Positions 1 through 17,797 of a DNA stretch of 64,000 nt are shown piece by piece. This DNA is from Rhodoferax sp. (GTDB taxonomy: Bacteria; Pseudomonadota; Gammaproteobacteria; Burkholderiales; Burkholderiaceae_C): assembly GCF_028715765.1 (NCBI RefSeq), contig NZ_JAQURE010000010.1, positions 1 through 64,000 on the forward strand, in the 5' to 3' direction. Position 1 is the stretch's first letter. Each line of letters begins with the position of its first letter. The position numbers and the translations under genes were made by a program. Below the pieces are notes generated by a model that was not told the origin of the DNA, did not search any database, and was given only the letters and a program-made list of their open reading frames with translations.

Positions 1-1
1 C

Positions 2-100: not shown

Positions 101-110
101 CGTATCTAAC

Positions 111-154
111 TTATGCTTAATGGCTTATTCTATAAGCGCTAGAGGGGTATTTTT
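111..154. repeat. Dispersed palindromic repeat, copy 1
   Basis: The bases contain GCTTATTCTATAAGCGCTAG followed by AGGGG and a T-run, which matches the family core. It lies between the 3' ends of two convergent genes at the left edge of the defence island. Confidence 0.7.
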
Positions 155-182
155 CTAACAAAGAATGGCATTTCACCAGATG

Positions 183-809: not shown

Positions 810-812
810 TTT

Positions 813-2099
813 TTACCCCAAAATTCCGGCTGCAAACAAATCACCCAAATTCAACGCTGATTTCCAGTCCCTCAGCTGCGGATGTTCATTTCCTCGCACA
901 ATATCTATGGCACCATCATCGTTCTTGCCAAAACACATGATTTGATTGGATTCGAGCTGACTCAATACGATGGGGGAATGTGTGGCACAAAGTATCTGGG
1001 AATCATAAACCGAGCTCAAAGACTGCATGACTGTTTCCATGGCTTTGGGGTGAATGCCATTTTCTGGTTCTTCAATCAGCATCAAGGCTGGCGGTTTGGG
1101 TGCGTAGGCAAGCAGGGTCAAAGCCAATAGCCGTAAAGTGCCATCTGATAATACCCATGACGGGGCACGCAAACCACTGCTGTAATGCAGTTCAATATAC
1201 ATTGAACGGTTTTCTGGTTTTTCAACAGTAGTCACATCGACTAAATCGGTTAATGAAGTGGCAATATGCTCAACCCAGCGCCGCTTTAATTCAGGTGTGC
1301 TTTCAAGTGCGTGTACCACCCACGGTAAATTTGAACCATCAGCCAAAAAATCAATGGGTGAGCCCGCAGGGGAGGGTAGTCGCATTTTCTCGGCATTCAG
1401 TGACAAACGATGAATACCTTCAAGCAATATCCGTTTGACCCATGTGGAGGCCGGAAAACGTTCCTCGTCTTCTGGCAGATTTGATAATGCACTTTTGCTC
1501 GGGCCAAGTCTGAAAGTATTGTTCCAATCAGTGGTTTCTGATCTGAAATAATCATTACTGGCTTCTGCCTTGCCTACGACCTTACTGACCACCTTGCGCC
1601 ATTTTTTATTATTATTTCTGAGGGTAATAATTTGCCCGGGCTCCTGCATTGAATCGGGGAATACCAATCGTAATTGTGGGTCTTGGGGTTTCCCGTCTCC
1701 AGCTTCTGTATCTTTGCAAAGCCACAGGGTCTCGTGTGCAAAACCCAGCCGGTCTTTGGCTTCAAGTGCCAATTCGTAGCGGGCAAAGTGGTACCTGTCA
1801 TCAAGCTTGCGCACAATCGCATCAGGCAATTTCAGGGTAACGGCAATTTCAATATCGCCGCCTTGGCGCATCCAGGTCAGATCCAGTGCATCTGGCGCGC
1901 GCGGCGCAATACTCATGCGTGTATTGCCGTAAACAGCCGCATCCAGGCCACTGGTCAACACATCACGCACCATCAGCAAAGCATCAAACAGTGTGCTTTT
2001 ACCGCTGGCGTTCGGCCCGACCATGACCAGAAAGGGGTCAAGAACGACGGACACGTAGCGCAAGGCGCGCAGGCCTTTGACTTCAATTTTGTGAATCAT
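813..2099 (-). CDS. AAA_21/SMC-like ATPase of a two-gene defence unit
   Basis: This 428-residue ATP-binding protein is of the ABC/SMC-like type used as a sensor or regulator in many abortive-infection systems. Visible elements: Walker A GPNASGKST at 28-36, a signature-like LSDGTLR near 317-323, Walker B LMLIEEPENGIHP around 339-351, and the H-loop CATHSP near 371. The distance between Walker A and B leaves a middle domain of about 280 residues, as in the AAA_21 group of AbiL/RloA-type proteins. It is the promoter-proximal member of a pair with the TOPRIM-like gene, three bases downstream. A repeat copy and about 169 bases separate it from the Bro-N gene, so it may have its own promoter. The ATPase fold is certain; the defence role is inferred from partner and location. 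Confidence 0.8.
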   Translation of the reverse strand: MIHKIEVKGLRALRYVSVVLDPFLVMVGPNASGKSTLFDALLMVRDVLTSGLDAAVYGNTRMSIAPRAPDALDLTWMRQGGDIEIAVTLKLPDAIVRKLDDRYHFARYELALEAKDRLGFAHETLWLCKDTEAGDGKPQDPQLRLVFPDSMQEPGQIITLRNNNKKWRKVVSKVVGKAEASNDYFRSETTDWNNTFRLGPSKSALSNLPEDEERFPASTWVKRILLEGIHRLSLNAEKMRLPSPAGSPIDFLADGSNLPWVVHALESTPELKRRWVEHIATSLTDLVDVTTVEKPENRSMYIELHYSSGLRAPSWVLSDGTLRLLALTLLAYAPKPPALMLIEEPENGIHPKAMETVMQSLSSVYDSQILCATHSPIVLSQLESNQIMCFGKNDDGAIDIVRGNEHPQLRDWKSALNLGDLFAAGILG

Positions 2100-2184
2100 G
2101 GATTAACTTTCTTTACCGCATGGGAAATTGTAGACATGCGATACGGACGATTGCGGTTAAATAAGGTATTCATCACTATGTATT

Positions 2185-2228
2185 AAATAGCTGCTAACAC
2201 TTGTTATTAAAGGGCTAGAGGCTTATTT
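2185..2228. repeat. Dispersed palindromic repeat, copy 2
   Basis: The copy reads AAATAGCTGCTAACACTTG then TTATTAAAGGGCTAGAGGC, with the TAGCTGCT and GCTAGAGGC ends of the family. It lies in the gap between the Bro-N gene and the ATPase gene of the two-gene unit. Confidence 0.75.
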
Positions 2229-2268
2229 GGCTTATAAATAATGGCCACATGGCGATCAGGCAGCGACT

Positions 2269-3222
2269 TCAATCAGGCGCACTGCAGGCGGTGTTTGCAG
2301 GCAGTTTTGCCCGCGTTGGGCGCTTGGGTTTGGCGTTCTGCACTGGCGATGTTGATTGTGGTTCGCCAAGCAAATCCGGTGTGGCTGGCGTAGCCAGGTA
2401 GTTGGATTTGCTCACTACGCTCTTGCCCGTTTTGGCTTCTAGCGCTTTGCGGGCATTGCCGGCAATCTTTCCGCCCTGTTTGGCTGATGTGCGGTTGTCA
2501 GCAAAGCCCTGGGCATCGGCACGCCGGGCAATCTCGGTGGTGCTGGCTTCGCCCAGCATGGTGAAGATCAGCTCCAGGTCGGTCATGTGGTCGCGCAGGT
2601 TGTTGCCAGTTTTGACCTGATCAAGACTTTTGAGCTGGCTATGCTCGCTGGGTGTTACGCCAAAGGTGGCCTTGGCTATTTCGGCGGTCAAGATGGAATA
2701 CTCTTTGCCCTCAGCCACGCCGCGCGCTTTCCATTCATCGGTCAACTCACCACGCACGCTGATGGAGCGCAGCCGCTTTTCAATCCACGCTGGCGGGTAG
2801 CCCTTGGCCTGGTACAGCTCGCGGGCACGGGCGCTGGCAAGTTCGGGGTTTTCGATTTCTTTGACCCGCTCGTAGCCCACCTGGGCCAGCCAGCGTTTGA
2901 ACGGCTCGGCTTTGGGGGATGGGATGGATTGGATGATGCGGAACAGGCCTTCGGTGTTGGCGCAGTTCACCCGCTGCGCACCGCCCGCCGTTTCGACCCG
3001 AAGGGGGGTGGCAATTTGCCCCCACCCTTTGGCCAGCTCTGGGTCACGACGGCGCAAGTCCTTGACATAGCCGTCTGGTTGAACCGAGTCGGTGAGCACC
3101 CCCACCACATCAACGATGGCAAACCACCATTCTTCGTTATGCCAGGTGCGCCGGATGGTGGTTTCCTGAAATACGGCGATGTGGTTGGCGGGCTCGGTGG
3201 CCGTTTTGGCTTTCTTGTTCAT
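2269..3222 (-). CDS. Bro-N / DinD-like DNA-binding protein
   Basis: This 317-residue protein has an N-terminal Bro-N (BRO/KilA-type) domain, residues about 17-120, with the hallmarks IRRTWHNEEWWFAIVDVVG and FKRWLAQVGYERVKEIENPE. The central part (YPPAWIEKRLRSI through HMTDLELIFTMLGEASTTEI) matches what I know of DNA-damage-inducible protein D (DinD) and RhuM-like proteins. The C-terminal 60 residues are Ala/Pro/Lys-rich and likely disordered. DinD in Escherichia coli is SOS-regulated and counters RecA filaments; related genes often travel with restriction-modification loci, as here. The ATG is preceded by GGGAG at good spacing. A gap of about 100 bases holding a repeat copy separates it from the ATPase gene upstream. 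Whether it regulates the operon or responds to damage cannot be told from sequence. Confidence 0.75.
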   Translation of the reverse strand: MNKKAKTATEPANHIAVFQETTIRRTWHNEEWWFAIVDVVGVLTDSVQPDGYVKDLRRRDPELAKGWGQIATPLRVETAGGAQRVNCANTEGLFRIIQSIPSPKAEPFKRWLAQVGYERVKEIENPELASARARELYQAKGYPPAWIEKRLRSISVRGELTDEWKARGVAEGKEYSILTAEIAKATFGVTPSEHSQLKSLDQVKTGNNLRDHMTDLELIFTMLGEASTTEIARRADAQGFADNRTSAKQGGKIAGNARKALEAKTGKSVVSKSNYLATPATPDLLGEPQSTSPVQNAKPKRPTRAKLPANTACSAPD

Positions 3223-3250
3223 GATGCTCCCTATTCAATTACTATGCAAT

Positions 3251-3294
3251 CGATAGCTGTTTACGCCTATTCCACTTGGGCTAAAGGCTTATTT
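3251..3294. repeat. Dispersed palindromic repeat, copy 3
   Basis: The bases CGATAGCTGTTTACGCC and then GGGCTAAAGGCTTATTT match the family with several changes. It lies between the SMC-like ATPase gene and the Bro-N gene. Confidence 0.6.
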
Positions 3295-3321
3295 AGTATG
3301 AAATATTTTCCCTCGACGGCG

Positions 3322-4980
3322 CTACGCAAGACATTTCTCCAGCTTCTTGACGAGCTCAAGCGCCCGGCGAACTTCCTCTTTGTAGAGCGGCACTTCTCCG
3401 CCATGGGAGCCCGGATTGAGGACGCGCTCAGTCGTCGCGAGCACGTCGTCAATCACTTCGGCGTTTTCAATCATCACCCAATGTTCACTGGTGACCAGCG
3501 TACGCAACTGCTTTCGCAATCGGCTGAGAGCGGTAAGTTCATCTGGGGTGATTGCAGGTATGGCCGAAAGGTCGACATCCGAAGCTGGGACAAGGTACTG
3601 CCGATGCTTTTCCGGCACGCCCTTCAACACTTTCTCGTAGAGCTTTGTAGGAAGCTTCTCCAACAGCTTGTTTCGTGCCCAACGCAACTGTTCGGTCAAA
3701 GTCAAAAAATCCTTGGTGGGTACAACTGTGAGCTCACGAAAACGTCGGGCAGTATCTTCGGCTGCCTTTCGGATGCAATTGGCCGCTTCGTCCAGACTCT
3801 CGCCGTGCAGATATTCTTCTGCTTTTTGAAGTTGGCTTTTGTCCACTTGCAACCGGATTTCTGTATCGGCGCTTCCAACGAAGCGCTGAAATGACCACTC
3901 GGTGTGTCGGCCACCAATGCGTCGCCTGAACTCATTAAAGAACCCCAGGTCGTGCGTCAGGATGATTTTCTGGTGCTCGGCAAACGTTTCGCTCAAGATG
4001 ATGTTCACCACCTTCATGCGATTGTTCATGTCCAGGCTGATCAATAAATCATCCAGCACCAGCAGCTTCAGGGGCGAGTCATGCAGGTGAGCCAGCGTTG
4101 CGCCAAAGCGCACAGACAGAGCCAATTGGGTCAGCTTGGCCTCATTCAAGAATGATTGAGGTTTAGGGATGCGATCGTTGTTGAGTTTGACTTCAAAGCC
4201 AATGCGTGGCATGGCAATACGGTGTTCATGGCGGTCATAGCTGCATGCGGAAGATACGCTAACAGCTAACTCGACTTGGGTGCCCGGATCGGAAAAGTGC
4301 TCACCGTAAAACTGTTGCGCCTCGGTCGTTATTTTTGCAAGAACCTCTTTCAGCGCCTGATTGAACCGGGCAATGTCAGCTTCATAGCGCTCATAGCGCG
4401 CCTTGCGATACCAGGTTGCTTCTCCGCTGGCCTTCGACTGGATAAATGGATCAGCGGTCTTCAGTTTGTGCCAGAGGGTGGCAATGTTCTTGGTGGACGT
4501 GCCCTGCGCAAACGGCAAAATTTCCTGCTCAAACACCGGCCAGAGATCAATGGCCTGCGAGTTGCGAAACTGGTAGAAGCTGGACAACACCCGGTAGGTA
4601 ATGAAGTCACTGGCCAGACTGGCTTTCAGTACATCGGGGTTCGCCTTAGTGTCATGCTGCTCGTTTGACAGCGAGTACACGCTGGCCGTCGTGTGGCTGT
4701 CGTCTTTGATCGACACGACCACGGCTGCGGTTGCGCGCTCCGCCGGTGTGGCGTGGACGTTCAGCAGGCTTTGCGGCCCGGAATCATCAAAATACTTAGC
4801 AACGTTGGGCGTGTCTTTGGCGGCACTTTGCAGAAACGTGTACAGCGTCCAGTACAGCGAAGACTTGCCTGCCCCATTGCCACCATAGGCCAGCAAGTGG
4901 CGACCATCCAGCTTGAAATCGAGGTGTTTGAACGCCTTGAAGGCGCGAACCTCAATGCGTTCAACGCGCTGCGTACTCAT
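3322..4980 (-). CDS. SMC/RecF-like ATPase of the helicase-methylase-ATPase operon
   Basis: This 552-residue P-loop protein has Walker A GGNGAGKSS at 33-41, a degenerate signature FLNEAKLTQLA near 278-287, Walker B LLVLDDLLISLD at 306-317 and an H-loop LTHD at 341-344, the layout of RecF/SbcC-type ATPases. The insert between the halves is short, about 240 residues, so there is no long coiled-coil arm. Residues 380-552 form an extra helical C-terminal region with no motif I recognise. Its ATG overlaps the methylase stop as ATGA, so translation is coupled and the products probably act together. In an anti-phage complex such a protein could sense DNA ends or load the helicase; that is inference. 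It does not resemble McrB or BREX BrxC. Confidence 0.8.
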   Translation of the reverse strand: MSTQRVERIEVRAFKAFKHLDFKLDGRHLLAYGGNGAGKSSLYWTLYTFLQSAAKDTPNVAKYFDDSGPQSLLNVHATPAERATAAVVVSIKDDSHTTASVYSLSNEQHDTKANPDVLKASLASDFITYRVLSSFYQFRNSQAIDLWPVFEQEILPFAQGTSTKNIATLWHKLKTADPFIQSKASGEATWYRKARYERYEADIARFNQALKEVLAKITTEAQQFYGEHFSDPGTQVELAVSVSSACSYDRHEHRIAMPRIGFEVKLNNDRIPKPQSFLNEAKLTQLALSVRFGATLAHLHDSPLKLLVLDDLLISLDMNNRMKVVNIILSETFAEHQKIILTHDLGFFNEFRRRIGGRHTEWSFQRFVGSADTEIRLQVDKSQLQKAEEYLHGESLDEAANCIRKAAEDTARRFRELTVVPTKDFLTLTEQLRWARNKLLEKLPTKLYEKVLKGVPEKHRQYLVPASDVDLSAIPAITPDELTALSRLRKQLRTLVTSEHWVMIENAEVIDDVLATTERVLNPGSHGGEVPLYKEEVRRALELVKKLEKCLA

Positions 4981-7900
4981 ACCGCGCCTTCACGCTGAAT
5001 CACCGCCAGCAAATCCGGGCTGTCCACGGGGATGCGGATGAGGATGTTGCGAATGGGGTGCTTGCTGTCGTTGGCCTGGGCGTAGAACTGCTGGGCTGCC
5101 GCCACCTGTTTTGCCGGCGGCGCAGCAGCATCGACGTCTTGCAGCAGTGGCGTGACGTGCGCCATGATGCCAAGGTGGTGCTCGGCCATGTGGTCTGCGA
5201 AATAGACCTCCATCACGCAGGCATCAATCACCTCCTCCAGAAACACCGCGACGCTTTTCAGGTCGGATCCATCGGATTTTTGTGATTCAAGCTTGGAGGC
5301 TTGCACCATGGGGATCAAGGCCTCGAACAAGGAGGCTTGCTGCGCGGATGGCTTCTTGATGGGGATTTTGTCCATGAAGATTTTGCGCAATTCCCGGCGG
5401 TCCTCGCCGAGATTGGGGAAGTTGTCCATGAAGCAGCAGCGGAACACTGTTGAGTTCAATGCCGCTGTCAAATAGGTCAACGATTCGGCTTCGCTCGTCA
5501 GGATGAATGCCTTGTCGTTGATGAAAAAATGCTCTGTCGTATCAAGGTAGAACGGCAGATACTTCGTCATGTTCGGATAAACAATCTTCGGCTTTTGAAA
5601 GTCATGGATATATGCGCAATTGCGTAGATTCGACCAGTGATCACCCTTGTCAAGCCTGACCGCTAGCTTCTCTTCATGCGCAACCAGGTGATTCCACAGC
5701 ACAGGGTATTCAGCCTCCAATTTCACTGGCGGAATTCCCAATTCCTTGACACCGTTGTGCGAGTTGATCATCCATTGCTCATCTTCTGCCATTGCCCACT
5801 GCGTCGCGTACCGTTCCACGTACCGCCCACGCAGCAAGGGCACAATCAAATCAGCGCAACGCGGGTCTTCAGCAATGAATGCATCCCGCTGCGCCGTACT
5901 GATGTAAAACGCCTCGTTGTAGCCGGTCTTGATACCGTAGTTAATTTGAATCTGCCACTTCTCAAGCGGTACGCCTTGCGCCTCCACCGCGCACTTAATG
6001 CGGAAGCGCTCAGGCGACATGATGACCCAGGACGCTGCACCGTCGGCCGGGCATACAAACGGTACTGCGTTGTCTTGCACGTAGTCAGGTAGTGAATCCT
6101 GAATCGAAAAATTTCGCGTCAGCACGCTGGACGGAAAGCTCTTTTTGGGCGCGGATTTGGCCAATCGGACGATGGCCGTATCTACCATGGCTGCGTTGAA
6201 GACGGGTACGCCACCAAAATCTATGACTTCTTCCACTGCCACGTCTTTGCAGAAAAAGCCGCGCAACTTCTCCCCATAACCAGCGCGCATCCATTTGTTG
6301 GACGTGATGTAGCTCAATTGGCCGCCATCTTTCAAGAGTCGGACGCCGCGCTCATAGAACAGGCAATAGATGTCAGCCGTGGCCGCATAGGTTTTGAACT
6401 TTTGTTCTACCCAGGCAGCCTTGTGTGCCGCGCTGAACTTTTGAATCTGCACATAAGGCGGGTTGCCAATGACGACATCAAAACCATCGTCCAATGCGGG
6501 GCCAAACATCTTGCCGGGATCAAAGAAGTCGGCCACGCTGTGGTGGTCGTAGGGGTTCCAGGCAATGCGGCGGTACACGTCTTCGTTGCCAAAAGAGTCA
6601 TGTTTCAGTTCGTCAATGATCTTCTTGGTGAGGTCACGATCTTTCTTTTGCAGTGCTAGCTTGGCTTTGCGCGTTTGGGCTGAAAAGTAACTGTGGCGGA
6701 CTTTCTCAAGCTCTTTTTCTAGCCGGATGGCGGTTTCGTTTTCAAACAGACTGCGGTTTTTGGGCAGGTTCAGACCCAGCAGCGTGTTGGCAGCGACAAA
6801 CTTGGTTTCAAGATTGGGAAGAGGACGCACGCCCAGATTGCGCGCCTTGTCGTTGTGGGTGCGCTGGTCACAGATCAGCGAGATAAAAAAACGCAGCTTT
6901 GAAATCTGAATGGCAATGGGCTGGATGTCTGCACCGTAAATGCAGTTTTCTATCAGGTAAAGCTTGCGGCCATAGTCCAGCGCGTTGTTGGCAAAGTCAT
7001 TGTTGATGGCTTGTACCGAAGTCTCGCGTGCTTGCACGTCTTCAATTTCTTCAGCCTTGGCCACCTGGCGCTGGTGCCACTTTTCATTGTGCGGGTCCAG
7101 CTTGCCCAAGATGAACACCAGTTTGTGCAAGATACCCATGGGGTAGGCACCAGACCCACAGGCGGGGTCGAGGATGTTGCAGGCGTTGATGGCAGTGATG
7201 AGTGCGTCAATCTCGGCCTCTGAAAAAGCGTGCTCTTTCTCGGTGTAGGCAAACAAAATATCTAACCCAGCTTTGGCATCCGCCCTGGTGGTGGCGGGCA
7301 AGGCTTTGACCAGGGCATCTGTAAGGTAGGCTTTGAGGGACTCGTCGACCATGTAATCCACAATGGGGCGCGGGGTGTAAAACGAGCCGGTCTGGCGGCG
7401 TGCGTTGGTGCCGGTTTCAGGGTTGTAGCTGGCCAGCAGGTTTTCAAACACATTGCCCAGCAGTTCGGGGTCAAGGGCGATTTCTTGCTCTACTGGTGTG
7501 CTCTCGGCAATGGTGAACTTGTAGCCGTGCAGGATGTGCAGCAAGCCGCGCACGCTGGCCTTTTTCTTTTTGGCATCGCCAAAGTCATCGCTCAGGTCAA
7601 CGACGTGGGGCGCAGAAAAAAACAGGCGGTTGGGGACGATAGGCTGCTTTTTGGGGTTGCGTGAGAAGCCGTCGGCATATTGCACCTTGCCGGTGTCATC
7701 CTCCGTGTCAAGGCAGGCGAACAAGCCGCCGTTCAGGAAAGGAATGTCCTCGAACAAGCTAAGCGCGTTATCTGGCACACGGAAAGACTTCTTGTACCTG
7801 TACAGCGTTTTCACACCATGCTGGTTGCGATTTTCCTGAAAATCGCCATCCGCTGCAAACTGCCTAATGGGCTCACCATCGGCATTCATAGGCTGGTTGA

Positions 7901-8837
7901 GCGTGGCAAAAAACAGGTTTTGCAAAATGGCGTGGTAGTAGGTGCTTTCATCATCTCCGACAGAAATCAATGCCTCGCTGATAGCATCTGGCTCAAACAA
8001 ATGGTTGGGAATGAGGTCTTTTTCTTTCAGGAACCAGCAAAAGATCAACCGCGTGAGCAACCGAATAACGCTGGTGGCGTTGCGGGTGTCTTCGTCGGGC
8101 TCCAGATCGGACGGAAAGCTGACTTGCTTTCGTGCCCAGAAATACCAATTGGACAGTTCTTCGTAAAAACGCTTGTTGAGCAGTTCAACGTTGAATACGT
8201 CTTCCCACGCGGCGTGAAGTTGGTCGAAGTTGCCGATGGGCTTTTTGCGGGCAAGCAGTTCCGTGGTCGAGAACGAAGCCAGAATGTCCAGGTGGCCCGG
8301 ATGCGGCTTGACCGTTGAGATGTTTTGGATCAGCGTGACCTTGCCCAAAACGTCTTTGCTTTCATCCCGCTTGTTTTGCCTGCGATTGATGACTGCAATG
8401 GACAAATTACCCGCCACCTTGAACAGCACCATGACCGGCATGGGAAAGATACGGTTGATCTGGCGGGTGATGGCGGCCAGTTTGCCCCGTGCGTAATCAC
8501 CCGGCTGGAGCTCCACTGCGAAGAACACATAGGACTGGAGCAGGGATGCCCTAATGGTGGTGTCTTTGAACAGGGTGGCGTTGTGCGACAGTTCTTCGTC
8601 GGTGAGCTGGAACAGCAGGTGGATGGATTTCCAATTTGATTTTTGCGCGCGGGGATGCGCAAGCACGCCGCTGGGATCAAACTGCTGGCAAAAAACTTCT
8701 ACTGAATCAAGGGCAATGGTGCGGTCTGACTTGTAGCCAAGGCAGGCAAAAAACGCTGTAGCGGCATCTTGCAGGGGGCTGAATGAAAAGGATTGAATGG
8801 CGTTTTGAATCGCTATTTTTTGATAGATGTCAGCCAT
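4977..8837 (-). CDS. Large Eco57I-like N6-adenine DNA methylase
   Basis: This protein of about 1286 residues is predicted to methylate adenine in DNA. Visible motifs: SFYTPRPIVDYMV near 485 (the start of the N-6 methylase core), DPACGSGAYPMGILHKL near 555 (SAM-binding motif I), YGADIQPIAIQISKLR downstream, and the catalytic NPPY near 793. The region after NPPY is long and resembles the target-recognition part of type IIG/ISP and PglX-like enzymes. The N-terminal 450 residues show no PD-(D/E)XK motif that I can identify, so cleavage would have to come from another subunit. I chose the ATG at 8837; a TTG at 8843 overlapping the vapC stop is possible. It lies two bases after vapC and overlaps the ATPase gene by ATGA. 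It is probably the self-marking part of the system. Confidence 0.88.
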   Translation of the reverse strand: MADIYQKIAIQNAIQSFSFSPLQDAATAFFACLGYKSDRTIALDSVEVFCQQFDPSGVLAHPRAQKSNWKSIHLLFQLTDEELSHNATLFKDTTIRASLLQSYVFFAVELQPGDYARGKLAAITRQINRIFPMPVMVLFKVAGNLSIAVINRRQNKRDESKDVLGKVTLIQNISTVKPHPGHLDILASFSTTELLARKKPIGNFDQLHAAWEDVFNVELLNKRFYEELSNWYFWARKQVSFPSDLEPDEDTRNATSVIRLLTRLIFCWFLKEKDLIPNHLFEPDAISEALISVGDDESTYYHAILQNLFFATLNQPMNADGEPIRQFAADGDFQENRNQHGVKTLYRYKKSFRVPDNALSLFEDIPFLNGGLFACLDTEDDTGKVQYADGFSRNPKKQPIVPNRLFFSAPHVVDLSDDFGDAKKKKASVRGLLHILHGYKFTIAESTPVEQEIALDPELLGNVFENLLASYNPETGTNARRQTGSFYTPRPIVDYMVDESLKAYLTDALVKALPATTRADAKAGLDILFAYTEKEHAFSEAEIDALITAINACNILDPACGSGAYPMGILHKLVFILGKLDPHNEKWHQRQVAKAEEIEDVQARETSVQAINNDFANNALDYGRKLYLIENCIYGADIQPIAIQISKLRFFISLICDQRTHNDKARNLGVRPLPNLETKFVAANTLLGLNLPKNRSLFENETAIRLEKELEKVRHSYFSAQTRKAKLALQKKDRDLTKKIIDELKHDSFGNEDVYRRIAWNPYDHHSVADFFDPGKMFGPALDDGFDVVIGNPPYVQIQKFSAAHKAAWVEQKFKTYAATADIYCLFYERGVRLLKDGGQLSYITSNKWMRAGYGEKLRGFFCKDVAVEEVIDFGGVPVFNAAMVDTAIVRLAKSAPKKSFPSSVLTRNFSIQDSLPDYVQDNAVPFVCPADGAASWVIMSPERFRIKCAVEAQGVPLEKWQIQINYGIKTGYNEAFYISTAQRDAFIAEDPRCADLIVPLLRGRYVERYATQWAMAEDEQWMINSHNGVKELGIPPVKLEAEYPVLWNHLVAHEEKLAVRLDKGDHWSNLRNCAYIHDFQKPKIVYPNMTKYLPFYLDTTEHFFINDKAFILTSEAESLTYLTAALNSTVFRCCFMDNFPNLGEDRRELRKIFMDKIPIKKPSAQQASLFEALIPMVQASKLESQKSDGSDLKSVAVFLEEVIDACVMEVYFADHMAEHHLGIMAHVTPLLQDVDAAAPPAKQVAAAQQFYAQANDSKHPIRNILIRIPVDSPDLLAVIQREGAV

Positions 8838-8839
8838 CT

Positions 8840-9244
8840 TCAAACCATCCAGTCTTCAAGTTTCAAGTGCGGCACATTTTCAAAATGGCGGGTGTTGTGG
8901 GTGACCAGAATCAGCTTTTCGGCCAGGGCGTGGGCGGCGATCAGCGTGTCCATGTCGCCGATGGGTTTGCCCTGGGTCTTGAGAGCGTGTTTGAGCACAC
9001 CATATTGGTCTGCCGCTTCATTACTCCAGTCCACGCTCGGCAGTCGCAAGAAAAATCCATCAATCAGAGGGCGGCGGCGGTCTTCAGGTGTCATACCCAT
9101 TTGCCCGTAGCGCAGTTCAGCGCGGGTGATGACCGAAATAACAATGGTGCGATGTTTGAGTGCGTCGTTAACGCGTTCTTCCAACGCAGGCAACGATCGT
9201 CGCAAGTAATAGCTGACGATATTGGTATCGAGCATGTAGCGCAT
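8840..9244 (-). CDS. vapC: VapC-type PIN-domain ribonuclease toxin
   Basis: This 134-residue PIN-domain protein is the toxin of a VapBC pair; family members cleave RNA, often initiator tRNA or rRNA. The PIN acidic set is visible: Asp6 in YMLDTNIVSYY, Glu43 in RAELRYG, Asp97 and Asp99 in GDMDTLIAAHA, followed by THNTRHF, typical of the VapC/MvpT subgroup. An upstream in-frame start at 9256 exists, but the ATG at 9244 overlaps the vapB stop as TGATG, the usual coupling in such pairs, and gives the expected length. All catalytic residues appear intact. It sits between the antitoxin gene and the methylase gene with no room for a separate promoter, so toxin expression is tied to the defence operon. 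Confidence 0.92.
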   Translation of the reverse strand: MRYMLDTNIVSYYLRRSLPALEERVNDALKHRTIVISVITRAELRYGQMGMTPEDRRRPLIDGFFLRLPSVDWSNEAADQYGVLKHALKTQGKPIGDMDTLIAAHALAEKLILVTHNTRHFENVPHLKLEDWMV

Positions 9245-9498
9245 CACGCATCCCACCCTTCAAAAGGACTGGGTCGGGGTGCATCATCACGGGGTTGTAA
9301 AAACTCTTCCGAGGGTGGCAGTGCCCGCAATTCAGCCAAAAAAGCTTCCAATTCGTCTTTTTGGGGCTTAGGCTGAATGGTGATGATGCCGTCTCTAGAT
9401 TTGCTGATCCAGACTTCTTCGCTGTTCAGCCGAAACGCCTTGGGCAAGCGAATGGCTTGGCTATTGCCTGTGGTAAAAACTTTGGCGGTGGCAATCAT
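9244..9498 (-). CDS. vapB: VapB-type antitoxin, AbrB/SpoVT fold
   Basis: This 84-residue antitoxin carries an N-terminal swapped-hairpin AbrB DNA-binding domain (AKVFTTGNSQAIRLPKAFRL) and a C-terminal acidic, proline-rich tail that would wrap the VapC toxin. Family members neutralise the PIN toxin and, as a complex, repress their own promoter. The open frame runs up to 9552, but the ATG at 9498 fits the family start and has AAGGAT at suitable distance. A perfect 10-bp inverted repeat begins 15 bases upstream and is the likely operator. The frame upstream overlaps the end of the helicase gene only if the longer start is used. The pairing with vapC is clear. Confidence 0.9.
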   Translation of the reverse strand: MIATAKVFTTGNSQAIRLPKAFRLNSEEVWISKSRDGIITIQPKPQKDELEAFLAELRALPPSEEFLQPRDDAPRPSPFEGWDA

Positions 9499-9512
9499 GG
9501 TGTATATCCTTG

Positions 9513-9540
9513 AAAGTAGATATGAAAACGTATCTACTTT
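9513..9540 (-). promoter_or_regulatory. 10-bp inverted repeat upstream of vapB, probable VapBC operator
   Basis: AAAGTAGATA at 9513-9522 and TATCTACTTT at 9531-9540 are perfect inverted repeats with an 8-base spacer. The site lies 15 bases before the vapB ATG and covers the helicase stop codon (9534-9536). Palindromes at this place are the usual binding sites of VapB/VapBC. It could equally form an RNA hairpin affecting read-through from the helicase gene. Confidence 0.65.
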
Positions 9541-12500
9541 ATCACCAACCAAGTGACCAGCTCAAAGTCTTGCTGCCCTTGCACCGCCTGCGCAGCATCC
9601 ATCAATTTGCCGCCGCGCCCACTGAACAGGTTGGCAGCGTTTTTCTGGCCGAATTGCGCCACGATGGCTTTGACAGCTTTGTCCAGCAGGGCGGAATAGG
9701 CGTGCATGTCTTGGCCGTGTTGCGTCTCGGTGTCAAACAGTTGGCACAGTTCGGCATAGGGCGTGGTTTGGCCCTGGCACAGGGCGCGAAAGATGTCGAG
9801 CACTTGTTTGGGCGCGGTGAAGTTGTAGCGCAGCGTGCCGTCGGCCTGGATGTAGACCAGAAAGAAGGGGCTCAAGGGGTTGACGGTTTCAAGGGGTTTA
9901 CCGGATTGTGGTTCACTGGCCACACGGGTTTGCCGCAGGCAGTAAATCACTCCTGATTGAATAGCTGCTTGCGCTTTATTTATAAGCTCTACAGCCGTTT
10001 TTGGCACAGGAACCACAGCATACAAGCCAAGTGGTGCGTCGTGCAGCAGGCGTTGGTTGGCGGTGATAAAGTTGCTCAGGTCTAGCCGAAAATCGTCCAG
10101 CGTGAATTGGTTCAAAGCCACGGATTCGTTAAAGTCTTCCAGGTCCAGCACTTCGTCACGCAGGCGCATGAGCTGGATGTCGCGGTATTTCAGGTCTTGG
10201 GTGATCAGGTCTTCAATCTCTGAGCTGGTCAGGATGTTGTCTTCGTTGGTGGCGGCAATGTCTACCAGCGCCATGCGGGCTTCAACCCGGTTTTTCAGGT
10301 TGATGTACTTGTTGAGGTCAGGTGTCGGCCAGAAGTTGATGAGCTGGATGCTGGCGTTGGGGCTGCCAATGCGGTCAATGCGGCCAAAGCGCTGGATGAT
10401 GCGCACCGGGTTCCAGTGGATGTCGTAGTTGACCAGCAGGTCGCAGTCTTGCAGGTTTTGGCCTTCGCTGATGCAGTCAGTGGCAATCAGGATGTCAATT
10501 TCAGCGTTTTGTGCCAAGGCAGACATTTTGTGGCGCTGCTTGGCGCGTGGGGCAAAGTGGGTCAGGATGTGGTTGTACTCTGGCTTGCCAAAAGTGCAGC
10601 GGTTGGGGCGCGCACCGCCTGACACCAGACCGATATGAACTTTGAGGGTGTCAGTGGCCCAGCCCTCAAGCTGTTCATACAGGTAGGCGGCCGTGTCAGC
10701 AAAGGCGCAAAACACGATGACCTTGCGGTTGGGCTCACCGTGCGTGTTGGTGGTGGGCTGGGTGGTTTTGCTGTGAATGATTTTTTTCAGCTCGGCCAAC
10801 TTGGCATCGCGCTCAGGGGTCACGCCTCCGGCGCTCTCGGCCAGCATGGCGAGCTGGCGCTTGTCGGCGGCCAGGTCGGCCAGCCAGCGGTCAATGTCCA
10901 TGTGTTGCATGGCGTATTTCAGGCTACCCACTTCAAAGGCTTCACGCAGTTCGTCGTCTTCTTCGGCATCCAATATGAACAAATTGGCCTGTAAATTTTG
11001 TGGCTGGCTGTCACGCAGGTTTTTAAAGGCTTGCAGGCGCTCTTCAAGGGCTTCAATCTTGTCCACCGTGCGGTTCATTGTGATGGCAAACGATTTGACA
11101 GAGCTTTCCAGCCGCTTCAAAAAGTTCACCTTCATCATGCCAATCAAAAACTCTTCACGTTTTTGCTGGCTGAAGTTGCGCACATCGGCATCGCTTTTGT
11201 AGTGGTCTTTGAACTGGGGCAGCACGTAGATGGAGGGCTTGAAGAGTGAGAGCTGGTATTTTTCAATCTCATCGTTGAGCTTGTCGTAGGTGGGAAAGCG
11301 GTGTTTGCTGTCAATGTCTGCATACACTGACACCGGCTTGGCGCGTGTGGGGAACTGGCCAATGCGCGCCATGCTGGCTTTGTAATATTTTTGAATGTGG
11401 CGGCGCGAGCGGGCAATGGTCAGCTCGTCGAGCAGGGTGAAAAAGCCCGCAGGCAGCTTGTCCATCAGGTCTTTGGTGCTGCGCTCGCCGGTGACTGGGC
11501 GTTTAGCCCACTGTCCAAAGGTTTTTTGCGCGGCGTCAAGGGTTTGCTTGATGCTGGCAATGCCGGTGCTGGGCTGCAGTGCGTGGTCTTGCCCCTCAGA
11601 TACCAAATAAAGCTGGTTGCGCAGGTCTTTCAGGTCGTTGTTGACCGGGGTGGCCGAGAGCAGCATCACCTTGGTTTTGACACCAGCTTGGATGATGTCT
11701 TGCATCAGCCGCTCATAGCGGCTGAGCCGCACTACGTTGCCATCAGCATCAGTTCGGCCTTTGACGTTGTTGCGAAAGTTGTGCGACTCGTCAATCACCA
11801 CCAGGTCAAAGTGGCCCCAGTTCAGGGTGCTCAAGTTCACATCACCGGCTTGGCCACTGTCACGCGACAGGTCGGTGTGTGAGAGCACGGTGTAGGCAAA
11901 TTTGTCGTTTACAAACGGGTTGAGCGCACTGGCGTTTTGCGCCAGATACACGGTCCAGTTGTCACGCAGTTTTTTGGGGCACAGCACCAATACGCGGCGG
12001 TCGCGCTGCTCAAAGTATTTGATGACCGCCAACGCGGTGTAGGTTTTGCCCAGGCCCACACTGTCGGCCAGGATACAGCCGTTGTGCCGGTTGATTTTTT
12101 GAATGGCGGCTTTGGCTCCGTCTTTTTGAAATTCAAACAGGGTTTGCCAGATGTCGGTGGCGGTGATGGCGGTGTTGTCAAAAAATTGGGCTTGCTCTTT
12201 TTGCCCGGCCAAATACGCCTCAAACACATGAAACAGAGTTTTGAAGTAAATGAACTCGGGTGAGTGGTCTACATAGAGCTGCGCCAGGTAGTCAAGCACC
12301 TGTGTTTTAACGTCTTGTACCAGTGTGGTGTCTTGCCAAAGTTCGTCAAACCAGGCTTTGAGATCGGTGCGGTCGCGGTCGCTGTCAATCACCATGTTGA
12401 GCTCAATGTTGGGCACATCAGACAGGCCCAACCCACGCTGGGTAAAGTTGGAACTGCCCATGAGGGCGTATTCACGGTGGCCATCAAAGATGTGGTACAG

Positions 12501-12881
12501 CTTGCCGTGCAGCAGGTTGGACTCGACCACAGAGCGAATCTCGACCTTGGTTTCAATCCACTGGGCGCAGCGCCGGGCAACGTTTTTTTGCTGCAGGCGG
12601 TTTGCAAGCGTCAGCCCTTCGTCTTCCATCTTGAACGCTTTTTTATCGGTTTTCTCGGGATCCAAGGATTGGATGAAGCGGGGTTCGCCAAAAAGAAATT
12701 GCAAAGAATCTATGCCGTCAAGCTGCTTGCTTAACGCTTCATAGGCGTAAATGGTGAAGTAGGCTGAGACGATGGACAGGGCGCTGCCCGAGCTGACCCT
12801 GGCGTTTAAAAAATCGACCACGCGGCCACGTTGGCGGTTGTCTTTGATGCCTTGTGGCAAGGTTTGGGATGCTGGTGTCAT
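9534..12881 (-). CDS. PLD-nuclease / SNF2-helicase fusion, probable restriction arm
   Basis: This protein of 1115 residues joins an N-terminal phospholipase-D-type nuclease-like domain to an SNF2 (superfamily 2) helicase. In the first part HGK at 125-127 followed by GSSNFTQRG at 142-150 is the HxK...GSxN pattern of a PLD half-site. The helicase has Walker A DSVGLGKT at 273-280, DESH at 364-367, SATPVNND as motif III, and QRFGRIDRIGS as motif VI. The frame opens at 12968, but the ATG at 12881 follows AGAGAGG at good spacing. One copy of the dispersed repeat lies in frame near the C-terminus. It is the first gene of the run helicase-vapBC-methylase-ATPase. PLD plus SNF2 suggests translocation-coupled cleavage of unmodified DNA, by analogy with type I/III restriction; no experiment is implied. 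Confidence 0.85.
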   Translation of the reverse strand: MTPASQTLPQGIKDNRQRGRVVDFLNARVSSGSALSIVSAYFTIYAYEALSKQLDGIDSLQFLFGEPRFIQSLDPEKTDKKAFKMEDEGLTLANRLQQKNVARRCAQWIETKVEIRSVVESNLLHGKLYHIFDGHREYALMGSSNFTQRGLGLSDVPNIELNMVIDSDRDRTDLKAWFDELWQDTTLVQDVKTQVLDYLAQLYVDHSPEFIYFKTLFHVFEAYLAGQKEQAQFFDNTAITATDIWQTLFEFQKDGAKAAIQKINRHNGCILADSVGLGKTYTALAVIKYFEQRDRRVLVLCPKKLRDNWTVYLAQNASALNPFVNDKFAYTVLSHTDLSRDSGQAGDVNLSTLNWGHFDLVVIDESHNFRNNVKGRTDADGNVVRLSRYERLMQDIIQAGVKTKVMLLSATPVNNDLKDLRNQLYLVSEGQDHALQPSTGIASIKQTLDAAQKTFGQWAKRPVTGERSTKDLMDKLPAGFFTLLDELTIARSRRHIQKYYKASMARIGQFPTRAKPVSVYADIDSKHRFPTYDKLNDEIEKYQLSLFKPSIYVLPQFKDHYKSDADVRNFSQQKREEFLIGMMKVNFLKRLESSVKSFAITMNRTVDKIEALEERLQAFKNLRDSQPQNLQANLFILDAEEDDELREAFEVGSLKYAMQHMDIDRWLADLAADKRQLAMLAESAGGVTPERDAKLAELKKIIHSKTTQPTTNTHGEPNRKVIVFCAFADTAAYLYEQLEGWATDTLKVHIGLVSGGARPNRCTFGKPEYNHILTHFAPRAKQRHKMSALAQNAEIDILIATDCISEGQNLQDCDLLVNYDIHWNPVRIIQRFGRIDRIGSPNASIQLINFWPTPDLNKYINLKNRVEARMALVDIAATNEDNILTSSEIEDLITQDLKYRDIQLMRLRDEVLDLEDFNESVALNQFTLDDFRLDLSNFITANQRLLHDAPLGLYAVVPVPKTAVELINKAQAAIQSGVIYCLRQTRVASEPQSGKPLETVNPLSPFFLVYIQADGTLRYNFTAPKQVLDIFRALCQGQTTPYAELCQLFDTETQHGQDMHAYSALLDKAVKAIVAQFGQKNAANLFSGRGGKLMDAAQAVQGQQDFELVTWLVIK
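9957..10001. repeat. Dispersed palindromic repeat inside the helicase gene
   Basis: ATAGCTGCTTGCGCTTTAT and TATAAGCTCTACAGCCG match the family consensus. It is read in frame as ELINKAQAAIQ within the SNF2 protein, the same peptide register as the copies in recB and recC. Confidence 0.8.
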
Positions 12882-12974
12882 GTTTGCCTCTCTGTAAGGC
12901 ACATGATAAAGCGCCAGTCGCTCAGCTATTTGGGTAGCATGGCGCTTGCCGGGCAGGTGCCGCTGCACCTTCGG

Positions 12975-14489
12975 CTAATTTTTGGCCAACCGGGTTGGCT
13001 TTTTGCCTTTTGCCAGCTGCTGGCGCGCTACAGGGTTGCGCCGGGCCTTGGCTTTTCTGACGGTGGCGCGAGCTGGCAAGTACAGCACCACGGCTTGACC
13101 TGTTTTGAACGATGCACTGGTGCTGACCTTGTTCCACTGGGCGACCGAGGCTGCACTCACCGCAAAGCGCTTGGCCAGGCTGGCCACGGTGTCTTTGCGT
13201 CCGGCTTTCACCGTGGTTCTACGCAGCACCACCTCAGGCGCCAGCGACAACTGGCCGTTGTCGGCAATGTGTTCTGCCACATCCACGTTCAACCCCGCCG
13301 CACGTCGCACCAATAGGGTAGAACCAGCTTTGATCAACATGCGCGGCGGGATGTTGTTGACGGCGCGCAATTCGGCTTCGGTCATGCCAACCCGCTTGGC
13401 TGCCGCTGCCAGGTTCAGGGTGGCGGGTGCGACCCAAGCCGTCCAGCTGGCCAGTTGGCCACCGGTATAAGCTTCCAAGTTAGCTTGATAGCGCTCAGCG
13501 TTGTCCCACGGCAGCAGCATCTGCGCTGTGCCCGAGGCCAGCAACACCGGCTTGTTGAATGACGGGTTGAGCGCTTTGAAATCTTCTAGCGGGACTTCGG
13601 CCAATTGGGCGGCCAAGGCCACATCAATGTCACGATCCACCTCAACGCTTTGAAAGTAGGGGTGGTTGTTGATGACGGGCAGCGTGACACGAAAAGCTTC
13701 GGGATTGGCCACCAAATTTTTCACCGCTTGCAGCTTGGGCACATACATGCGGGTTTCCATCGGCATGGGCAAGTCTGTGTAGGCGGTGCTTTGCCCGCTG
13801 CGGGCAGCTTTGTCCATGGCGCGTTTGACGCTGCCTTCGCCCCAGTTGTAAGCGGCCAGCGCCAAATGCCAGTCGCCAAACATGCCGTAGAGTTTTTGCA
13901 TGTAGTCCAGCGCCGCCCGGGTGGACTCGATCACGTCGCGGCGGTCGTCTCGAAACAGGTTTTGCTTCAACTCAAATTGCCGCCCTGTGGCTGGCATGAA
14001 TTGCCACATGCCGGCCGCCTTGGCAGTGGACACCGCTTGCGGGTTAAAGGCGCTTTCAATAAAAGGCAACAACGCCAACTCTGAGGGCATGCCGCGCCGC
14101 TCCAACTCTTCAACAATGTAAAACAGGTATTTGTTGCCACGCTCGGTCATGCGCGCCACGTAATCTGGGCGGCTGCTGTACCACAGCTCGCGCTCGCGCA
14201 CCAAGTTGTTGTCCAAGTCAGGCATGGCAAAGCCGCGGCGAATGCGCTCCCACAAATCCACCGGGGGCTGCAGCGCTTGCACGTATTGAGAGCCCAGTTG
14301 GGTGTTGGCCAAGGGTTTCAAACCACCTGAGGGGTAAATCAAATCACCAGCTTGGACATTGGGCGTGGCATCTGCTTGGGCAGCAGGGTCTATCGCACCC
14401 TCAAGCGGCGATGGGGTCAAGCCAGGCGCAGCGCAGCCCACCAGCCAGACGCAGGCTGCCAGAGCGGCAGCACGAAAAAAGGTTTTCAA
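12975..14489 (-). CDS. mltD: Membrane-bound lytic murein transglycosylase D
   Basis: This 504-residue lipoprotein cleaves the glycan strands of peptidoglycan, releasing 1,6-anhydro products, at the outer membrane. A lipoprotein signal with lipobox LVGC places the lipid on Cys19. The SLT domain follows (about 115-260) with the catalytic Glu145 in LPFIESAFNPQA, then AAGMWQFMPATGR and LALAAYNWGEG. Two C-terminal LysM-type repeats (about 355-400 and 420-470) would bind glycan. The tail is Lys/Arg-rich. Its ATG overlaps the gloB stop as ATGA, so the two are co-transcribed; this gloB-mltD pairing is common in Burkholderiales. About 93 bases separate its end from the helicase gene of the defence island. 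Confidence 0.93.
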   Translation of the reverse strand: MKTFFRAAALAACVWLVGCAAPGLTPSPLEGAIDPAAQADATPNVQAGDLIYPSGGLKPLANTQLGSQYVQALQPPVDLWERIRRGFAMPDLDNNLVRERELWYSSRPDYVARMTERGNKYLFYIVEELERRGMPSELALLPFIESAFNPQAVSTAKAAGMWQFMPATGRQFELKQNLFRDDRRDVIESTRAALDYMQKLYGMFGDWHLALAAYNWGEGSVKRAMDKAARSGQSTAYTDLPMPMETRMYVPKLQAVKNLVANPEAFRVTLPVINNHPYFQSVEVDRDIDVALAAQLAEVPLEDFKALNPSFNKPVLLASGTAQMLLPWDNAERYQANLEAYTGGQLASWTAWVAPATLNLAAAAKRVGMTEAELRAVNNIPPRMLIKAGSTLLVRRAAGLNVDVAEHIADNGQLSLAPEVVLRRTTVKAGRKDTVASLAKRFAVSAASVAQWNKVSTSASFKTGQAVVLYLPARATVRKAKARRNPVARQQLAKGKKPTRLAKN

Positions 14490-15253
14490 AATTGATCTTT
14501 CCAGGCACGCAAAGCCGCAAACACATCGACAGGGCTGTGTGCGTGGTTGTTGCGCTGTTGCACCGCATGCGCCACGGCGGGCAGATGGGTGCGTAAAAAA
14601 GGGTTCACCAGCCGCTCAAGCGCCAAGGTGGACGGCAAGGTGGGCTGGTGGGCTTGGCGCAGTGCCTGTGCGCGCTGTTGGTAGGCCGCGGTGTCGGCAT
14701 TGTCAGGCTCCACTGCCAAAGCAAATTGCAAGCTGCCCAAGGTGTACTCATGGGCGCAGCACACTCGGGTGGCAGCGGGCAGGGCGGCCAGCCGCGTCAA
14801 TGACTGAAGCATCTGCGCGGGCGTGCCTTCAAACAAGCGACCGCAGCCCGCGCTAAACAGCGTGTCGCCACAAAACAGCACCGGGCTCTGGTTGGGTACA
14901 TGGGCAAAGTAAGCCACATGGCCAGCGGTGTGACCTGGCACATGCAGCACCTCAAACGTCAGCCCAAGCGCGCACAGGGTTTGCCCGTCGGCCATGCGTT
15001 GCAGCGGCTCGGGCATGCGCTCCATGCTAGGGCCAAACACCTGCGCACCAGTGGCCTGGCGCAACGCAGCCACGCCGCCAGTGTGATCTTGGTGATGGTG
15101 CGTGACTAGAATCGCCTCCAGCGTCAAGCCCAGTGACTGCAAAGCCTTGAAAACTGGCTGGGCATCACCCGGGTCGACCACCACCGCCCGCTGGTAGTGA
15201 TGCAACATCCAGATGTAGTTGTCGTTGAAAGCAGGGATTGGAATTAACTTCAT
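14486..15253 (-). CDS. gloB: Hydroxyacylglutathione hydrolase (glyoxalase II)
   Basis: This 255-residue metallo-beta-lactamase-fold enzyme hydrolyses S-lactoylglutathione to lactate and glutathione in the cytosolic methylglyoxal pathway. The metal motif THHHQDHTGG is at 51-60 (H52, H54, D56, H57), and CGDTLFSAGCGR and CCAHEYT carry further ligands. The start MKLIPIPAFNDNYIW is the family's usual N-terminus. A TTG six bases upstream is open, but ATG at 15253 is preferred. That ATG shares bases with the divergent ATG of the methyltransferase (sequence CATG). A TATAAT lies only about ten bases upstream, so the message may be nearly leaderless. Confidence 0.93.
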   Translation of the reverse strand: MKLIPIPAFNDNYIWMLHHYQRAVVVDPGDAQPVFKALQSLGLTLEAILVTHHHQDHTGGVAALRQATGAQVFGPSMERMPEPLQRMADGQTLCALGLTFEVLHVPGHTAGHVAYFAHVPNQSPVLFCGDTLFSAGCGRLFEGTPAQMLQSLTRLAALPAATRVCCAHEYTLGSLQFALAVEPDNADTAAYQQRAQALRQAHQPTLPSTLALERLVNPFLRTHLPAVAHAVQQRNNHAHSPVDVFAALRAWKDQF

Positions 15254-16016
15254 GGGCAATCAAATTATAGGTTTGCATGACTGGCTGGCGACCCCACCCG
15301 GGGCTTACCTGCTGGACTGGGAGCGCCGTCAAATGGCCGCTTCGGTGGCCGATGTGTTTGGTTTTCACGCCCTGCAACTGGGCTTGCCAGAGCTAGATGC
15401 GCTGGCCGCCAACCGCATGCCGCACCGCTGGCTGGCCACCGAAACTGCACATGACAATGCGGTGTTTCTGACCGAGTTTTCGGCACTGCCGTTCCCCGCC
15501 AACAGCCTGGATTTGGTGGTGCTGCCACACACCCTGGAGCTTACTGCCGACCCCCACGCCGCTTTGCGTGAGGTCTACCGGGTGCTGGTACCAGAAGGGC
15601 GGGTAGTCATCACCGGCTTTAACCCCATGAGCTTGTGGGGGTTTCGCCAGTACCGTGCCCACCTGTACAAACGGCTTGGTTGGCAGCATCTGTTTTTGCC
15701 CGACACGGGTGAATTTTTGGGCTATTTACGCATTCGCGACTGGTTGCGTTTGCTGGGTTTTGAACTTGATTCCGGGCATTTTGGTTGCTACCGGCCCGCA
15801 CTGGCCAACCCCCAGTGGCTGGAGCGGTTTGCCTGGATGGACAGCTTTGGCGCGCGCTGGTGGCCGATACTCGGCGCGGTTTACGCTGTGGTGGCGGTCA
15901 AGCGGGTGCGCGGCATGACGCTGCTCAACCCCACTTGGAAGCCCGCTTTGCGGCTAGCAAATGCTCCTGTTTCAGTAGCTGGTCGCGCAGGTAAATCAAG
16001 CGCTACAGGCCAATAA
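15252..16016 (+). CDS. SAM-dependent methyltransferase-like protein
   Basis: This protein of about 254 residues resembles the class I methyltransferase family next to gloB and rnhA in many proteobacteria. The late Rossmann motifs are visible: FSALPFPANSLDLVVLPHTLE and REVYRVLVPEGRVVITGFNPMSLWG. The canonical glycine-rich motif I is not recognisable; VFGFHALQLGLPEL sits where it should be. Substrate unknown. The ATG at 15252 overlaps the divergent gloB ATG; a TTG at about 15273 is an alternative start. The last residues (after ANAP) and the stop codon come from a copy of the dispersed repeat, so the native C-terminus may have been replaced. rnhA begins 31 bases later on the same strand. Confidence 0.75.
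   Translation: MGNQIIGLHDWLATPPGAYLLDWERRQMAASVADVFGFHALQLGLPELDALAANRMPHRWLATETAHDNAVFLTEFSALPFPANSLDLVVLPHTLELTADPHAALREVYRVLVPEGRVVITGFNPMSLWGFRQYRAHLYKRLGWQHLFLPDTGEFLGYLRIRDWLRLLGFELDSGHFGCYRPALANPQWLERFAWMDSFGARWWPILGAVYAVVAVKRVRGMTLLNPTWKPALRLANAPVSVAGRAGKSSATGQ
15264..15269 (-). promoter_or_regulatory. Candidate -10 box of gloB
   Basis: ATTATA on the plus strand reads TATAAT on the gloB strand, ten bases before the ATG. A start point about seven bases downstream would leave a leader of only a few bases. No good -35 box is visible, and no ribosome-binding site precedes this ATG, which would fit a leaderless message. Confidence 0.4.
15971..16014. repeat. Dispersed palindromic repeat at the methyltransferase 3' end
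   Basis: CAGTAGCTGGTCGCGCAGG and AAGCGCTACAGGCCAAT match the family. The copy encodes the final residues of the methyltransferase (SVAGRAGKSSATGQ region) and leads directly into its TAA. Confidence 0.7.
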
Positions 16017-16046
16017 TGCATATCAACATTGATTTGAGGTGATTTT

Positions 16047-16496: not shown

Positions 16497-16528
16497 GTGC
16501 AAAGTTAACCTCATCATCGAAAAATTTC

Positions 16529-17776: not shown

Positions 17777-17797
17777 GCATTGGCCAGGGAAAATTTC

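Follow-up and report, generated by a model that had tools for sequence, protein, structure and literature searches.

A proposed two-module restriction-modification-like operon of Rhodoferax with a methylase-coupled ATPase as candidate PrrC-like RNase

Introduction

What kind of system is encoded by an operon of Rhodoferax sp. (assembly GCF_028715765.1) in which a PLD-SNF2 helicase, a large DNA methylase and an ABC ATPase stand together on the minus strand? The operon lies near the start of contig NZ_JAQURE010000010.1 (C10 in our numbering), and the stretch analysed, referred to as the window, comprises 64,000 nucleotides from the first base of this contig; the source genome is 3.41 Mb in size, in 112 contigs, and 98% complete. 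A first-pass annotation, made from the letters alone, had described the three genes as a non-classical restriction-like system of the Hma (helicase, methylase, ATPase) type. Our analysis suggests that the operon very probably provides restriction-modification (RM)-like defence, and we judge it evenly balanced whether it is built of two modules in which the methylase-coupled ATPase would be a latent PrrC-like RNase.

Gene organisation of the operon

Read along the minus strand, the genes follow each other in the order PLD-SNF2, vapB, vapC, methylase, ATPase, BRO-N, MAD3 and MAD4, where the contig ends, and a lytic transglycosylase-like gene and a hydroxyacylglutathione hydrolase gene are located 5' of the PLD-SNF2 gene. 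Pfam domain lists were compiled for ten proteins of the locus, and PADLOC and NCBIfam profiles were also scored. The three open reading frames (ORFs) of the first-pass annotation proved to be real and intact, with correct coordinates and strand; its gene list was incomplete, having overlooked vapBC (8840–9498) between helicase and methylase as well as BRO-N, MAD3 and MAD4. The overlap that it described for methylase and ATPase exists, whereas the near-overlap of helicase and methylase was rejected, since 696 bases separate these genes in the window.

The proposed fusion of a PLD-like nuclease with an SNF2 helicase was borne out by the Pfam matches (Table 1), with the catalytic HxK at residues 154/156 (P0007 numbering) and intact Walker A/B columns in the helicase alignment. 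The methylase has the predicted length, combines Eco57I and TaqI_C, both over the Pfam cut-off, in one chain as in type IIG-like enzymes, contains the NPPY and DPACGSG motifs and scored best with the PADLOC model REase_MTase_IIG (E=1.9e-120). Its N-terminal domain shows homology to the DUF4391 protein that stands free in another operon described below (profile E=9.5e-6, 88 columns), and it may be a nuclease fold of type IIG/IIL that has degenerated; a structural model of this domain, reliable only up to about aa 230 (mean pLDDT 58), gave no Foldseek match at E<=0.001. In agreement with the earlier description as SMC/RecF-like, the ATPase is of the RecF/Rad50 type on both domain and structure matches. 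An Rfam scan of positions 1–16000 gave no match at the gathering score.

Methylase and ATPase are exchanged as a unit among near relatives

One scan of genome contigs yielded nine methylase-encoding loci. The trio of helicase, methylase and ATPase recurs at 22–79% helicase identity to the window in loci (designated L and a number) L004, L005, L006, L008, L009, L023, L031, L032, L033, L082, L083 and L085, and with broken ORFs in L060, while only a partial trio was seen in L011, L022 and L084, the last of these nearly a copy of L085 but truncated within the methylase. The three genes are consecutive and without insert in L004, L008 and L009, L006 has vapBC placed as in the window, and L005 has vapB only; L031, L032, L033, L023, L083, L082, L085 and the broken L060 are more distant. 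In L060 (8202–13725), methylase and ATPase are each split in two ORFs, as a result of either decay or sequence errors. Among whole genomes of the order, own genome included, the methylase was found in 3 of 399 (E<=1e-60) and the ATPase in 4 of 399 (E<=1e-15); the corresponding numbers for the phylum, again including the own genome, were 3 of 398 for the ATPase (E<=1e-12) and 22 of 398 for the helicase (E<=1e-60).

Pairwise identities of 13 trios (the broken L060 and L084 excluded) were compared by Mantel tests. Among the eight "near" trios chosen by us (window, L004, L005, L006, L008, L009, L032 and L033; helicase at least 69% identical to the window), methylase and ATPase identities were correlated (0.90, p=0.0005), with values of 0.13 (p=0.23) for helicase and methylase and 0.08 (p=0.32) for helicase and ATPase. 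The closest six gave 0.67 (p=0.03), 0.05 (p=0.40) and −0.11 (p=0.64), respectively. These results indicate that recent exchange splits the helicase from a methylase-ATPase unit. The clearest case is the pair L008 and L033, with helicases that are 95% identical, methylase parts of 32–45% and ATPases of 27% identity: the DNA matches at 88.3% over bases 1–3408 of the L008 helicase gene, which is 3420 bases long, and stops there, with just three scattered methylase matches beyond. This seam is the helicase/methylase junction, the very place where vapBC sits in the window. At the other junction, 12 of 15 loci show a 4-base overlap of the methylase and ATPase genes, and in the remaining 3 the two genes lie 1–2 bases apart (L060 and L084 not counted; the L022 "methylase" is a piece of the target recognition domain (TRD) only). 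We regard the ATPase as probably the partner of the methylase.

The PLD active site is kept next to the methylase

Across 65 aligned helicases (one ORF of at least 850 aa per locus), the catalytic HxK of the PLD domain was kept in 19 of the 20 located beside the methylase (18 of 19 loci, plus the window), the sole miss being the truncated L007, and in all 13 loci with the ATPase as well as in the window. It was present in none of the 36 helicases beside type III Mod/Res and in one of nine with neither partner. The alignment lacks L109 (split), L113, L011, L012, L022, L024, L080 and L084, and the tree built from it also lacks L007. Because HxK is kept beside the methylase and lost beside Mod/Res, the PLD domain probably cuts DNA in this operon, and we consider it likely to be the DNA nuclease of the system.

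The Mod/Res setting is a different, type III-like operon of PLD-SNF2, DUF4391, Mod and Res, found in 36 of 64 helicase-relative loci on the basis of a Mod or Res match; six more had DUF4391 only. It shares with the window a homologous helicase (37–45% identity) and the DUF4391 domain, but DUF4391 is free-standing there (10 of 10 scanned proteins over the Pfam cut-off), modification is assigned to Mod and cutting to Res. In L061, Mod matched N6_N4_Mtase, and Res, the one copy scanned, matched ResIII and has its own RE_endonuc endonuclease domain. This four-gene arrangement occurs in L061–L079 and L087–L112, with HxK missing in 36 of 36. In the IMG/VR loci with DUF4391 and Mod, 9 of 18 contained intervening ORFs of at least 90 aa, for example a gene for a GmrSD protein in L103, and in L087 a RhuM protein is encoded next after Mod.

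A PrrC/RloC-like signature in the C-terminal region of the ATPase

In its C-terminal region, the ATPase carries the signature Arg-x3-Glu/Asp...Asn-Pro-x-Ser/Ala-His. In an alignment of 13 diverse ATPases, the only invariant residues of aa 381–552 were A387, R404, N522, P523, H526 and E536, and R404, N522, P523 and H526 were invariant again in a second alignment of ten ATPases that added L082, L083 and L085. Of 14 ATPase relatives, the window counted among them, 13 had NPx[SA]H with an upstream R-x3-[ED]; the exception, L080, does not adjoin this methylase. The signature was likewise found in L082, L083, L084 and L085 and, for L060, in the second ATPase piece. As R-x3-[ED] is a loose pattern with several matches in some proteins, the assignment of R404 is based on the two alignments. 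L024 has an ATPase with the signature and no helicase or methylase match nearby.

According to PMC2610378, RloC has the motif Arg-x3-Glu-x36-52-His, often with Ser before His, substitution of any of the three triad residues by Ala abolished cleavage, and the PrrC triad is Arg320-Glu324-His356. The same source and PMC3710099 describe prrC as a gene inside an RM operon whose product is kept silent by the linked restriction system, and the latter places both RloC and PrrC in the HEPN superfamily. EcoprrI type Ic/PrrC and RloC thus share with our protein an ABC ATPase head and, behind it, the C-terminal elements R-x3-E ... S-H (PMC2610378), a likeness drawn from published motif descriptions. Unlike these systems, the operon has no HsdR/M/S, a longer Glu-His spacing and weak or no HEPN match, and its RNase is a prediction; unlike RloC, its ATPase has no CXXC zinc-hook motif. 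The signature and the coupling to the methylase suggest a PrrC/RloC-like effector, although we place the probability that the C-terminal region is an RNase somewhat short of even.

A vapBC pair at the helicase/methylase junction

Both vapB and vapC are intact, and as adjacent genes for a MazE/AbrB-type antitoxin and a PIN toxin they have the make-up of a type II toxin-antitoxin pair; they overlap by one base. The models closest to VapC are the tRNA(fMet)-specific ones, whose cut-offs it does not reach. A perfect 10-nt inverted repeat, its arms 8 nt apart, spans the stop codon of the helicase gene and is a candidate VapB(C) operator; L006 has a repeat with 7-nt arms at the same place, with an 8-nt spacer and different letters, and no inverted repeat was found at the corresponding place in L005, which has lost vapC. 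The vapB gene of L005 ends in letters that resemble the 3' end of the window vapC, a deletion-like remnant such as loss of vapC would leave. The own genome encodes eight further VapC relatives; as these are only 30–39% identical, the window pair is not a recent local copy. Between L006 and the window, VapB and VapC are 45% and 43% identical, compared with 71% for the helicase and 85% for the ATPase, which is consistent with either fast change or separate arrival of vapBC. Inserts at this junction were observed in 6 of 13 loci (L060 and L084 not counted): vapBC in the window and L006, the vapB remnant in L005, KilA-N in L082 and AlbA_2/Schlafen in L083 and L023.

Proposed mechanism and alternatives

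The gene layout, the conserved motifs, the exchange of modules between near relatives and the site of the insertion are observations; the biochemical activities, the silencing of the ATPase by the methylase, the control by vapBC and the effect on phage are deduced from sequence in the following proposal. Module 1, the PLD-SNF2 protein, would be an ATP-driven DNA motor with a PLD domain that cuts unmodified DNA. In module 2 the methylase would mark adenines of self DNA, with its own TaqI-like domain recognising the target site, and would probably signal to the motor which DNA lacks marking. The same module would hold the ABC ATPase, encoded by the overlapping gene, which would be kept silent with the methylase and, if a phage disabled or swamped the system, be released as an RNase, possibly a tRNase, to stop growth. 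vapBC entered the module seam and brings the operator-like repeat; lying with it 5' of the methylase, the pair may add addiction and expression control to module 2, although we hold it doubtful that it helps control the methylase. The complete scheme, in which loss of self-marking leads to arrest through the methylase-held RNase, the motor is swappable and vapBC provides both a second tRNA-directed switch and a methylase promoter, appears unlikely.

Several findings weigh against this proposal. The spacing between Glu and His of the ATPase signature is 57–65 or 116–122 residues, compared with 36–52 in RloC, and E408 is replaced by Asp in L004 and L005. In its R-N-x3-H form, the HEPN motif has Arg at H-5, where these ATPases have Leu or Met. 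The C-terminus of the window ATPase had no match to any HEPN model, and PF05168 was matched under the cut-off (E=0.0015–0.0085) only in the related L032 and L033, the same two proteins accounting for two of seven C-termini and two of nine whole ATPases. Structure-search matches span aa 3–385 only, with aa 386–552 outside them. Methylase genes without an ATPase match were found in L007, L010 (at a contig end), L019, L020, L021 (methylase cut short) and L086. The ATPase is therefore no strict requirement. The exchange test depends on eight related, hand-picked loci; all 13 trios gave 0.48 (p=0.01) for methylase and ATPase, 0.83 (p=0.0001) for helicase and methylase and 0.30 (p=0.05) for helicase and ATPase, indicating that helicase and methylase co-track in the long term. 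Loss of HxK maps to one branch of a quick tree with long-branch warnings and therefore represents one event, not 36. Of the 13 trio loci whose junction is visible, just 2 have an intact vapBC, and a promoter and terminator scan of 8700–13100 gave no minus-strand promoter and one match on the plus strand (shuffles: mean 2.0), which leaves an internal minus-strand promoter unsupported.

A tenable, if less than evenly probable, alternative would make the ATPase a sensor or loader of the RecF/Rad50 kind: it would bind DNA ends or gaps, find unmodified sites together with the methylase and license PLD-SNF2, its C-terminus serving only dimerisation or docking to the methylase. The concentration of R404, N522, P523 and H526 among so few invariants in 13 diverse sequences exceeds what docking would need, and the existence of loci without the ATPase also speaks against this role. 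Rather improbable is a type ISP/IIG-like enzyme split into a motor-nuclease and a methylase-TRD, with ATPase, vapBC, BRO-N and MAD as unrelated island cargo: the ATPase-less versions (L007, L019, L020 and L086, with L010 and L021 incompletely seen), the type IIG models as best scores of the methylase and the frequent inserts at the helicase/methylase junction favour it, but methylase and ATPase stand without an intervening gene in 15 of 15 loci and co-vary.

If the coupled ATPase is indeed a PrrC/RloC-like RNase, a suicide switch tied to restriction would be a modular arrangement that extends beyond the type I/PrrC example; the prediction of R404, E408 and H526 makes the RNase reading directly testable. 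A PLD active site kept or lost according to partner offers a natural control for which domain cuts DNA, and vapBC at the seam is a concrete case for asking if restriction genes are guarded or regulated by toxin-antitoxin pairs.

Comparison with known systems

Membership in Hma, that is a DUF499-centred BREX-related (BR) system, is very improbable: SNF2-family helicase and N6-methylase are both present, in the same roles as in type-2 BR loci with their ATPase and N-terminal HKD nuclease on the helicase (PMC12839542), but the HmaC ATPase of that source is a DUF499 AAA+ protein and ours a RecF/Rad50-like ABC protein, the helicase scored far better with the PADLOC model C3a139 "HKD+Snf2" (3.5e-121) than with HmaA (1.3e-25), DUF3780 is absent from the Pfam lists of all ten proteins, and the methylase has its own TRD and a DUF4391-like N-terminus. 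DUF499 (PF04465) had no match in the genome or in the Pfam list of the ATPase, with matches in the control Thermotoga maritima, and Hma was ruled out on ATPase family and this absence. A defining component separates the trio from Hma and BREX, and the ATPase is linked to the methylase, not to the motor. The earlier assignment therefore stands as regards a non-classical RM-like operon, whose proteins include neither PglZ nor DUF499 nor HsdS, and fails as regards Hma; the PADLOC search it had proposed returned C3a139 for the helicase, REase_MTase_IIG for the methylase and HmaA as the weaker match.

Its statement that the marks of other systems are lacking was confirmed for HsdS, PglZ and DrmB among the ten proteins. 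BREX was rejected, as PglZ (PF08665) had no match in the genome (2 of 14 control genomes matched). Type I RM was rejected, as none of the ten proteins contains Methylase_S; a genome search for specificity genes gave four HsdS matches, on contigs C34 and C28. Two type I-like loci with an N6-methylase profile near HsdS lie there (G000:C28:14025-17068 and G000:C34:26716-30158). DISARM is similar in its SNF2 core (DrmD, 3.8e-38) and N6-methylase (DrmMI, 8.8e-21), but DrmA was just a weak helicase-core match (1.2e-17) and no DrmB-type DUF1998 was found in the Pfam lists of the ten proteins, to which this search was confined, and DISARM was rejected. PbeABCD and CxC ABC-ATPase-DndE share an HKD-SF2 helicase fusion and an ABC ATPase, sometimes with a methylase (PMC10853773), but no DndE occurs among the ten proteins, a CxC hook is absent, and the PbeA score of the helicase is 4.4e-13. 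The titles and abstract starts of the open literature searched named neither the trio nor vapBC inside such an operon; DUF4391 was mentioned in one paper. Such loci may already be listed in a 2020 classification of ABC ATPases.

Table 1. Features of the operon and its neighbours (window coordinates)
Feature	Position	Strand	Evidence or remark
PLD-SNF2 helicase/nuclease, 1115 aa from ATG	9534..12881	-	PLDc_2, SNF2-rel_dom, Helicase_C over cut-off; PADLOC C3a139 HKD+Snf2 E=3.5e-121
PLD (HKD) nuclease domain, approximate	12312..12602	-	Pfam PLDc_2 aa 123-211; catalytic HxK ... GSSN
Perfect 10-nt inverted repeat, 8-nt spacer, across helicase stop codon	9513..9540	.	candidate VapB(C) operator
vapB antitoxin, MazE/AbrB-like	9244..9498	-	MazE_antitoxin 25.2 bits, cut-off 24.7; NCBIfam VapB models under cut-off
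vapC toxin, PIN domain	8840..9244	-	PIN over cut-off; NF047863 E=6.5e-36, 123.5 bits, cut-off 140
Type IIG-like N6-adenine methylase with own specificity domain, 1286 aa	4977..8837	-	Eco57I E=1.8e-40, TaqI_C E=2.9e-7
N-terminal DUF4391-like domain of methylase	8196..8837	-	perhaps degenerate type IIG/IIL nuclease fold
TaqI-like target recognition domain of methylase	5358..5840	-	Pfam TaqI_C aa 1002-1162
RecF/Rad50-type ABC ATPase, C-terminal region resembling RloC/PrrC	3322..4980	-	
ATPase C-terminal region aa 381-552, R404-x3-E408 ... N522-P-G-S-H526	3325..3840	-	ATPase alignments; weak HEPN (PF05168) in two relatives
BRO-N domain protein, PADLOC PDC-S13	2269..3222	-	E=3.1e-112; recurrent ATPase neighbour
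MAD3 ATPase of MADS, neighbouring defence gene, operon membership unclear	813..2099	-	NF047739 491.7 bits, cut-off 420
MAD4 of MADS, neighbouring defence gene at contig end	183..809	-	NF047734 243.1 bits, cut-off 160

Neighbouring genes

A BRO-N gene is also located directly 3' of the ATPase gene in L005 (15843–16308, short, at the contig end), L006 (15654–16586) and L011 (2467–3369), the last keeping this neighbour although its ATPase is only 58% identical. MAD3 and MAD4, both over their NCBIfam cut-offs, belong to the methylation-associated defence system (MADS), the locus ending at the contig start; model matches for mad2, mad5 and mad6 were found on other contigs, that for mad2 under the cut-off. 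Either the rest of the MADS locus is unassembled here, or the pair is a fragment. In L004, the trio is followed on its 3' side (15611–18271) by one gene for a DUF5655 protein that weakly matches NucS_C and another for an FHA-domain protein kinase, a defence-like combination.

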